This document shows, piece after piece, positions 61,980 to 64,000 of a stretch of 64,000 nucleotides of DNA (position 1 is the stretch's first letter; every line of letters starts with the position of its first letter). Under the pieces are notes generated by a model. The model made no database searches. It worked only from the letters and a program-made list of their open reading frames with translations, and was not told the origin of the DNA. The translations under genes were made by a program, and so were the position numbers. Source of the DNA: Erythrobacter sp. AP23 (GTDB lineage: Bacteria; Pseudomonadota; Alphaproteobacteria; Sphingomonadales; Sphingomonadaceae); NCBI RefSeq assembly GCF_001542855.1, contig NZ_LNBY01000001.1:62001-126000 (forward strand). Direction: 5' to 3'.

Positions 61980-62073
61980 TTGCGTTCTCCTCGTTGCGGG
62001 GTGGCTAGTTCACCCAACCGTTCGTCGCAAGGTGGGGAACCGTGACAGCGACCCCACGGTTCTTCCCTTCGCT

Positions 62074-63075
62074 ATGACGAAGCTCATCTATGTCGACGAC
62101 GATCTGCCCGGCATTACGCGCAAGGGCGCGGGCAGGGGATGGGCCTATTACGATCCCGAAGGCAAACTGATCAACGATCCGGAGGAAAAGCGCCGGCTCA
62201 ATGCGATCGCACTGCCGCCAGCCTATGGCGATGCCTGGTTTTGCCCCGCACCCAACGGCCACATCCTCGCCACCGGCGTGGATGCGAGGGGTCGTAAGCA
62301 ATATCGCTATCACCCCGAATTTCGCACGGCGCGCGAGGGCGAGAAGTTCGACAGCTGCGTCAGCTTCGGGAGCCTATTGCCGCTGGTTCGCAAGCGTGTG
62401 GACGACGATCTGCGCGGCCGCACACTGACCCGCGAGCGGGCGATCGCCAGCGTAGTGCGGCTGCTCGACCTGGGCGCGGTTCGTATCGGGAACGAAGGCT
62501 ATGCAAAGCAGAACCGGAGCTTCGGTGCGACGACTTTGCGTAAGCGGCACGCCGAACTGACCGGCAAGACCTTGCGGCTGCGCTATAAGGGCAAGGGCGG
62601 CAAGCCGCGCGAGGTGACGCTATCCGATGGCAGCCTGTCGCGGCTGGTGCGCAAGATGCAGGATTTGCCCGGCCAGAACCTGTTCAAATACGTCGACGAG
62701 GAGGGCGAAGTGCAGGCGGTGGGCTCGTCCGACGTCAACGAATACCTCGCCGAAACCATGGGCGAGCGGTTTACGGCGAAGAATTTTCGCACCTGGCACG
62801 GCAGCGTGATGGCCTTTCAATGCCTGCTCGAAGGCGAGGGCGATCTTCCGATCAAGGCATTGCTCGACTGTGTCGCGGAACGGCTCGGCAATACGCCAGC
62901 GGTGACGCGCAAGAGCTATATACATCCGGCGGTGATCGATCTGGTCGAGCGGCAGGAGGAATGGCGTGCCGAGGCGCGCCTGCCGCGTGCGACCAAGTGG
63001 CTGACGCGCGAGGAGCGCGGGCTGATCGAGCTGCTTCAGACAAGTCCTGCGGCGGCGGAATTGCTGGCTGCCTGA
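62074..63075 (+). CDS. DNA topoisomerase IB (poxvirus type)
   Basis: A type IB topoisomerase that nicks one strand and relaxes supercoils through a 3'-phosphotyrosine. The 333-residue product has the core ALPPAYGDAWFCP, a GAVRIGNEGY arginine motif with Arg137, RTWHGS with Arg239 and His242, and catalytic Tyr282 in RKSYIHP. Cellular genomes of alphaproteobacteria sometimes carry this viral-like enzyme. ATG 62074 was chosen; a GTG at 62032 is weaker. Its stop lies 43 nt before the next reading frame. Confidence 0.93.
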   Translation: MTKLIYVDDDLPGITRKGAGRGWAYYDPEGKLINDPEEKRRLNAIALPPAYGDAWFCPAPNGHILATGVDARGRKQYRYHPEFRTAREGEKFDSCVSFGSLLPLVRKRVDDDLRGRTLTRERAIASVVRLLDLGAVRIGNEGYAKQNRSFGATTLRKRHAELTGKTLRLRYKGKGGKPREVTLSDGSLSRLVRKMQDLPGQNLFKYVDEEGEVQAVGSSDVNEYLAETMGERFTAKNFRTWHGSVMAFQCLLEGEGDLPIKALLDCVAERLGNTPAVTRKSYIHPAVIDLVERQEEWRAEARLPRATKWLTREERGLIELLQTSPAAAELLAA

Positions 63076-63092
63076 GAGGTGCCTTGCATATG

Positions 63093-63143
63093 GTATCCTA
63101 AAGGGATACTGGGCGGACATGCACTTGGCAGGGTTTAGGATAC
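63093..63143 (+). promoter_or_regulatory. GTATCC/GGATAC operator-like repeats before nadE
   Basis: GTATCC at 63093-63098 and GGATAC at 63104-63109 form a perfect 6-bp inverted repeat with a 5-nt spacer, 17 bp in all. A third copy, GGATAC at 63138-63143, lies just inside the following reading frame. The size and symmetry resemble operators of Cro/C1-type dimeric repressors. Confidence 0.6.
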
Positions 63144-63367
63144 GTGCCTTTCGAGAGGCGCATGATCCGCCGCTTAGCGCGGAGGAATTCGGCGCGCGTT
63201 TCGGCGATCCCGAACCCTGGCCCAGCCGCACCGTCTACGGCTGGGAAGCCAAGGGCAAGATCGCCCGCGCATCGGTCCAGAAACGCCTTGCCGAACTGGG
63301 CGTTTGCCAGCCCGCCGACTGGCTCGAACCCGCCCCTGAAGAACCCGACGAGAAAGGCCCCGCTACT
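63119..63367 (+). other. Helix-turn-helix-like segment, in frame with NAD+ synthase
   Basis: From ATG 63119 the frame reads 83 codons without a stop into the NadE ATG at 63368. The segment has FRIRAFREAHDPPLSAEEFG followed by SRTVYGWEAKGKIARAS and VQKRLAELG, the layout of an XRE/Cro helix-turn-helix. It then has a linker rich in Pro and Glu. It may be a real N-terminal fusion or a separate start for a small regulator that reads on into nadE. Confidence 0.6.
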
Positions 63368-64000
63368 ATGAGCGGAACCGACATCCATCCCTTTTACGAC
63401 CTGCATACGCACGGTTTCGTCCGCGTGGCGACCAGCACGCCAAAGGTGCGCACGGCGGATGTCGCCTATAATGCGCAGGGAATTCTGGAACAGGCGCGCA
63501 AGGCGGATGCGCAGTCGGTCGACCTGCTGCTGTATCCCGAACTGGCCCTGTCCTCCTACGCGCTGGACGATCTGCACATGCAATCGGCGCTGCTCGATGC
63601 GGTCGAGGATCAGATCGATGCGATCGTGGAAGCCTCGCGCGATCTTCTGCCGGTGCTCGTCTTCGGCGCGCCGCTGCGCCGCAACGGCCGCATCTACAAT
63701 TGCGCGCTGGTAGTGGCGCGCGGCGCACTGCTCGGCGTGGTCCCCAAGAGCTTTCTGCCCAATTATCGCGAATATTATGAAAAGCGCTGGTTCGCGCATG
63801 GTCGCGAGTGCGTCGGACTGACGATCCGCTGCGGCGTGCAAGATGTGCCCTTCGGCACCGATCTGGTTTTCTCAGCAAGCGACCTGCCGGGTTTCACCTT
63901 CGGGATCGAGATCTGCGAGGATTTCTGGTCGCCCAATCCGCCAGGCACGATGGCCGCGCTCGCCGGCGCGACGATCCTGCTCAACCTTTCGGCATCGAAC
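63119..64000 (+). CDS. nadE: Glutamine-dependent NAD+ synthase, 5' part (partial), with in-frame HTH-like N-terminus
   Basis: Makes NAD+ from nicotinate adenine dinucleotide using glutamine-derived ammonia. The family-typical start is MSGTDIHPFYDLHTHGFVRV at 63368, preceded by AAAGG at 10 nt. The N-terminal glutaminase (nitrilase-fold) domain is complete in its triad: Glu in LYPELALSSYA, Lys in VPKSFLPNYREYYEKRWF and Cys in GIEICEDFW. The synthetase domain lies beyond the right edge. The same frame is open upstream to ATG 63119, giving an 83-residue HTH-like extension not usual in NadE. If translation begins only at 63368 the enzyme is normal. Confidence 0.9.
   Translation, partial: MHLAGFRIRAFREAHDPPLSAEEFGARFGDPEPWPSRTVYGWEAKGKIARASVQKRLAELGVCQPADWLEPAPEEPDEKGPATMSGTDIHPFYDLHTHGFVRVATSTPKVRTADVAYNAQGILEQARKADAQSVDLLLYPELALSSYALDDLHMQSALLDAVEDQIDAIVEASRDLLPVLVFGAPLRRNGRIYNCALVVARGALLGVVPKSFLPNYREYYEKRWFAHGRECVGLTIRCGVQDVPFGTDLVFSASDLPGFTFGIEICEDFWSPNPPGTMAALAGATILLNLSASN

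Follow-up and report, generated by a model that had tools for sequence, protein, structure and literature searches.

The repressor types known for NAD are NadR, NiaR, NrtR and NadQ, and in the accessible part of the account that names them none of the four is built into NadE, the NAD-making enzyme (PMC12421817). NadR of Enterobacteriales resembles the protein described here (HTH-NadE) in that both link an N-terminal HTH to an NAD-metabolic enzyme, and NadR represses NAD genes (PMC12421817, as far as its available text goes). According to the available sections of PMC5343134, NadR is absent outside Enterobacteriales and the NadQ site has the consensus ttATRCTCannntGAGYATaa. The enzymes joined to the HTH differ between the two systems: NadR consists of an HTH, an NMN adenylyltransferase and a ribosylnicotinamide kinase, whereas HTH-NadE carries NadE, which acts at the last step, with other catalytic domains and in another lineage.

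The HTH-NadE fusion gene and its conservation

In the window (the whole stretch of 64,000 nucleotides that was analysed), the frame that begins with the ATG at 63119 continues in frame through the NadE ATG at 63368 with no stop codon between. The open frame measures 803 codons across the entire contig and the protein counted from the ATG at 63119 has 772 aa. The NadE part, a glutamine-dependent NAD(+) synthase, occupies 63368–64000 on the plus strand and continues past the window end to a stop codon at contig position 127435–127437. The complete fusion protein matches the NCBIfam NAD(+) synthase model NF002730 over residues 91–766 (score 1049.8 bits, above the cut-off of 473), with CN_hydrolase and NAD_synthase as the Pfam domains of the NadE part. 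Residues E141, K210 and C266 and the stretch S458-G459-G460-L461-D462-S463 are invariant across 34 aligned fusions; we take the former to be the glutaminase Glu/Lys/Cys and SGGLDS to be the synthetase motif, and both are also present in the window's own protein. The upstream neighbour is a DNA topoisomerase IB gene (62032–63075, plus strand; Pfam PF01028 and PF21338) that lies outside the system and marks a conserved locus, and the downstream neighbour is an EamA transporter gene.

The sequence-only reading had taken the NadE frame to be joined in frame to an HTH-like segment, which is borne out by the uninterrupted frame and by comparison of related nadE loci. NadE is present in 60/60 same-genus genomes; with all frames read, 42 carry the extension as an in-frame N-terminal HTH and 18 have none. 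In-frame HTH-NadE is also found in 79/80 named loci, mostly of Erythrobacteraceae (80 loci out of 86 confirmed matches in GTDB 220 contigs), the exception (L108) being a contig that ends ahead of NadE. No stop separates the HTH from nadE in any of the fused loci read (42 same-genus, 79 named), and the unfused relatives lack the HTH entirely. In two unfused genes (L039 and L040) the match to the query runs across a TGA, yet it begins only at residue 65 or 73, and these genes lie 70–79 nt past the upstream gene, with too little room for an HTH gene. A stop-loss artefact or an assembly error was ruled out because of the recurrence of the fusion in 42/60 same-genus genomes and 79/80 named loci.

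Across the family the HTH profile matches 69/397 genomes, 60 of which have frames of 564–1050 aa (counted as NadE fusions by length, save those actually read), and at class level it matches 16/385 genomes, the four strong matches all falling in the window's family. The six of the 18 unfused genomes that fell within the profile-searched order set showed no HTH of this family at E ≤ 0.001, and the topoisomerase IB gene still precedes nadE in 8/18 unfused same-genus genes. Judging from these reading frames, the HTH-NadE fusion occurs in many marine alphaproteobacteria. A comparison of 21 close pairs puts dN/dS at 0.146 (HTH), 0.44 (linker) and 0.062 (NadE), values that place the HTH domain under purifying selection.

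The HTH domain covers residues 1–71 (63119–63331, plus strand), as delimited by AlphaFold2 helices and conservation among homologues, and is followed by a variable linker of residues 72–83 (63332–63367, plus strand), recognized by its dN/dS in close pairs and its low pLDDT. The window's own 83 residues match no family in Pfam or NCBIfam; among the homologues, curated HTH models are matched with weak E-values (HTH_31 in 4/42, best E 0.0017, and HTH_3 in 4/42). For the domain alone (63 aligned sequences) AlphaFold2 predicts five helices at residues 3–13, 21–28, 36–44, 51–59 and 65–69 with a mean pLDDT of 91.7, reaching about 96–98 per block up to residue 70 and falling below 50 at residues 79–83 of the linker; in a full-length model of the relative L065 the HTH domain is kept (pLDDT 80–91) and residues 72–86 are below 50. 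The predicted helices and the weak HTH_31 and HTH_3 matches uphold the proposal that the extension of about 83 residues is an HTH-type domain. Foldseek with the domain model found no PDB chain at E ≤ 0.001, and a PDB sequence search with the HTH profile returned a single match (E 1.2), which was disregarded. VIA-align gave a designed DNA binder as the best match of the model (Z 7.4), with HigA at 7.0 and the P22 c2 repressor at 6.8; the nearest chains including P22 c2 and HigA have Z 6.4–7.0, all values being below 8 and within the range of common arrangements. Within the explanation that we favour, the domain is modelled as a lambda-repressor-like HTH, a fold assignment that lacks support from Foldseek and in which DNA binding is inferred.

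A candidate operator and its association with the HTH

The order ahead of the HTH ATG is CTTGC...GTATCCTAAAGGGATACT...ATG. It comprises a -35-like TTGC (63084–63087, plus strand) and a -10-like GATACT (63105–63110, plus strand) that ends 8 nt upstream of the ATG, so that the promoter has the form TTGC-N17-GATACT. The candidate operator GTATCC-TAAAG-GGATAC, a perfect 6-N5-6 palindrome at 63093–63109 recognized from the sequence and by comparison without binding data, is the most telling feature of the locus and one that the sequence-only reading had not noted; it spans the promoter spacer and the -10, which overlaps its right arm. Promoter activity is inferred, the TTG[N]-N17/18-[GT]ATA pattern being conserved upstream of fusions (background on promoters in the available parts of PMC8407463 and PMC4287350). 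With the -10 ending 7–10 nt from the ATG, this promoter is found in 40/42 same-genus fused, 77/79 named fused and 6/18 unfused loci. As controls, the pattern occurs in 29/20000 random 48-mers of the window, and at the required place in 4/20000 of such 48-mers and 14/18000 shuffled upstreams. Given the 8 nt between the -10 and the ATG, the mRNA is probably leaderless or nearly so, beginning on the HTH ATG or a few bases upstream, an inference from spacing with the start itself unmapped; a Shine–Dalgarno-like (SD-like) motif lies 5–18 nt before the HTH ATG in 24/98 fused loci, partly formed by operator bases, which leaves a short leader possible.

Perfect 6-N5-6 palindromes number 30 in the 64 kb, the operator among them, and the exact TATCC-N5-GGATA core has one copy in the 3.4 Mb genome, at the fusion's own promoter. 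A regulon scan of the 60 same-genus genomes, restricted to exact GTATCC-N5-GGATAC (leaving out inexact sites, GTAGCC and types B and C), recovered 17 sites in 15 genomes, nine before fused nadE and eight elsewhere. Seven of these eight were read (the G024 site was left out): six fall within long open frames, four of them in one conserved gene that presumably resembles TldD, and one is intergenic. No second regulatory target was found among the exact sites read in these 60 genomes. The intergenic one (G034:C14:20602-20618, L250) belongs to an unfused species, which lacks the HTH, and probably arose by chance.

The operator motif is present upstream of 40/42 fused loci versus 0/18 unfused loci of the same genus (Fisher 2e-13, uncorrected for relatedness) and of 79/79 named fused loci. 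Counting distinct fused loci only (98), a 6-N5-6 site is present in 96, as the A form in 75 and as the B form in 21, and the remaining two (L014 and L057) have a third sequence. The six unfused genes that keep the promoter (L037, L046–L049 and L051) show a spacing of 17, a distance of 8–9 from the -10 to the ATG and an apparently leaderless start. Their left arms match the right arm at only 0–3/6 bases in the fixed register (2–4 in the best register), compared with 5–6/6 in all 117 fused loci having a promoter match; by this sequence comparison, retention of the left operator arm thus goes with retention of the HTH. In a free palindrome control (any register, loop 3–8), to which the fixed-register test is the sharper alternative, 1/18 unfused upstreams reaches 6/6 and five reach 5/6, close to shuffles (3.5% and 42%).

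The type of site also follows the type of HTH. Of 121 fused loci (98 distinct), 88 carry the recognition segment PSRT[VI]YGWE with GTA(T/G)C..GATAC-type sites, 31 carry K[TA]QT[VI]FGWE with TTATC..GATAA sites, and two carry YNWE forms with the third site. Upstream of the HTH ATG in the two YNWE loci, L014 and L057, the sequence is GTCTnAAAGAATAAT, which is not a clear palindrome. In a tree built from NadE only, at least seven changes of HTH type are required among the fused proteins (for instance, L014 lies within an A-type clade with support 100/98 and L057 beside L017 with 97/95), with the operator type matching the HTH type in 60/60 rows. The relatedness-aware tests, restricted to independent well-supported pairs, point the same way in 4/4 pairs for fused versus operator and 4/4 for type A versus not A (p 0.125 each), and in 2/2 for A versus B and 2/2 for fused versus promoter-keeping unfused (p 0.5 each); they are underpowered, with too few pairs for significance. 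The operator types were defined post hoc, after the sequences had been seen, and type C fits only its two members. The best explanation of these comparisons appears to be that HTH and operator form one cassette, moving and changing jointly.

The reading that we consider likely is an enzyme that represses itself by way of a phage-type cassette of HTH and operator, in which binding, repression and expression are all inferred. A complete NadE would be preceded on one polypeptide by a lambda-repressor-like HTH and a flexible linker. Transcription from a sigma-70-type promoter, with its -10 overlapping the palindromic operator, would yield a leaderless or nearly leaderless mRNA from the HTH ATG. 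NadE is oligomeric, and the HTHs of the oligomer may grip the palindrome as a dimer and block RNA polymerase, an inferred use of the oligomer by which the amount of NadE, and perhaps its ligand state, would set its own synthesis in a homeostatic loop. Negative or otherwise direct self-regulation through the 63093–63109 site is likely to about the same degree, in the absence of binding, transcription start or expression data, while metabolite gating of the binding, likewise inferred, deserves perhaps half that credence. The earlier suggestion, an NAD synthase regulating itself through binding to its own operator, agrees with a palindrome that accompanies the HTH, is lacking where the HTH is lacking and switches type together with it, again with no binding data. 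A point against self-regulation is that the HTH is dispensed with in 18/60 same-genus species.

HTH-like domains have other roles in many enzymes, and HppE structures are among the structural matches of this one. The HTH might then no longer bind DNA and serve structure or protein contacts while another regulator reads the palindrome, but a separate regulator would leave unexplained why the operator is missing from 18/18 unfused loci and why the types agree in 60/60 rows, and we regard this as improbable. Marginally weaker is the idea that HTH-NadE activates its own promoter, for instance by keeping RNA polymerase on a weak -10. The -10 GATACT does depart from the ideal, and the promoter is found whether or not the HTH is present. 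However, the palindrome covers the spacer and the -10 itself, the usual position for a repressor, and the six unfused genes retain the promoter spacing without the HTH, which suggests that the promoter does not need help.

The fusion junction and relatives of the domain

An AAAGG ahead of the NadE ATG, noticed in the sequence-only reading, is indeed present at 63353–63357 (plus strand) as a possible Shine–Dalgarno sequence for an internal NadE start, and it is kept at the junction in L001 and its close relatives. A NadE motif served as anchor in 84 of the 98 distinct fused loci (drawn from 121), and the 14 that could not be anchored were excluded from junction counts; within 14 codons of the NadE boundary, 65 of the anchored loci have an ATG, two have only GTG or TTG and 17 have no start codon. 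L133 lacks ATG, GTG and TTG from behind the HTH start until five codons beyond the junction. Where no start codon lies near the boundary, the fusion, as read from these codons, is therefore obligatory, which is the case in some species. On the other hand, an SD-like motif lies 5–18 nt upstream of the junction ATG in 30/65 loci versus a background of 4.4% (codon-phased windows inside NadE), and with the AAAGG kept it is therefore plausible from the sequence that a second, short NadE is made from the internal ATG beside the fusion in the window species. That NadE comes mostly from the ATG at 63368, with the HTH a separate or vestigial product of a regulator that lost its stop, would suit these SD-like motifs and is the least credible of the alternatives, the HTH being under purifying selection and 17/84 anchored loci having no start codon near the junction and two only GTG or TTG.

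Seven loci hold an HTH of this family without either of the enzymes to which it is fused, three in genomes (L175, L176 and L227) and four in IMG/VR (L251–L254). In five of the seven the next gene is primase-like (L175:2968-3201, where the HTH stop overlaps the primase ATG as ATGA; L227:2475-2798, minus strand; L251:2977-3216; L252:709-1155; L253:2884-3315), and these five sit in (pro)phage-like DNA; L176 and L254 are followed by other genes. DUF7146 is above cut-off in all four primase-like genes tested, the L227 gene having been judged by eye; Toprim_3 is above cut-off in two of them and below in two, and L253 contains a DnaG zinc ribbon. PHROG matches for L227, L251 and L254 are mostly transcription regulators with weak E-values, one being an excisionase/repressor, and a PHROG search with L253 gave no match. 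GenBank phages yielded 22 weak records (best 33% identity), which were set aside, and a plasmid search for the HTH gave no match. The stand-alone regulators of alphaproteobacterial (pro)phages belong to the same domain family as NadE-HTH and are recovered by the same profile, and several are preceded, by eye, by a promoter-like TTGC and an inverted-repeat-like sequence; unlike NadE-HTH, they are unfused and have a primase-like gene next. A phage origin of the HTH domain is an inference from these relatives. The proposal of a regulator with a lost stop may describe this origin, given the stand-alone phage-type relatives, but it does not describe the present state, in which the fusion is widespread and 17/84 loci have no junction start.

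A second enzyme partner was observed for the domain. The NadE-HTH profile also recovered frames of 531–542 aa in another genus of the same family, in which the same HTH domain is fused to a class II DAHP synthase (TIGR01358, 683.9 bits against a cut-off of 614.7, tested on L177). In the 22 such loci read, from 22 genomes (L177–L183 and L229–L243), TTACCC-N5-GGGTAA precedes the HTH exactly in 19, with one base changed in two and as a variant in L233, and these palindromes end 9–12 nt upstream of the ATG, the same place as at nadE. The profile matches 63/151 genomes in this genus, and frames of 530–664 aa, of which only some were read, occur in 58/68 rows. Profile searches of 396 order, 385 class and 151 DAHP-synthase-genus genomes revealed no clear third enzyme partner, although first-look candidates were only partly scored (e.g., 15 of about 70 per genome) and a miss is possible; the weaker matches are, by eye, ordinary regulators or unrelated proteins.

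Proposed cassette capture and comparison with known systems

On balance, we lean towards a broader proposal: on two or more occasions, core biosynthetic genes of Sphingomonadaceae would have acquired a phage-type cassette of about 250 bp (leaderless promoter, 6-N5-6 operator and an HTH of about 70 residues), making NadE and class II DAHP synthase their own repressors. Within one genus the cassette would later have been replaced by versions of differing specificity, or deleted, several times, and NadE-HTH would form a fifth class of NAD regulator. The DAHP synthase case suggests a general route by which phage regulators come to exert feedback on a metabolic gene. The HTH/operator pairs, in three or four versions, may constitute a small natural recognition code. 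With regulator and regulated enzyme on one chain, a 17 bp candidate operator and natural lineages lacking both, autoregulation of the last NAD step is directly testable. No publication on an HTH-NadE or HTH-DAHP synthase fusion was found in the open-licence literature.

In logic, NadR comes closest to HTH-NadE. HTH-NadE is not a member of that group, Pfam giving only CN_hydrolase and NAD_synthase behind the HTH, and, unlike NadR, its own promoter holds the sole exact operator site found in the genome. NiaR, NrtR and NadQ are, like HTH-NadE in its proposed role, repressors of NAD synthesis or salvage, but they are unfused to NadE; membership of the NadQ or NrtR groups is not met either, as GTATCC-N5-GGATAC differs from the NadQ consensus and the fusion has no Nudix domain. 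BirA and PutA are enzyme-repressors whose folds, enzymes and targets differ from those of HTH-NadE, whereas the HTH and site described here sit on two unrelated enzymes.
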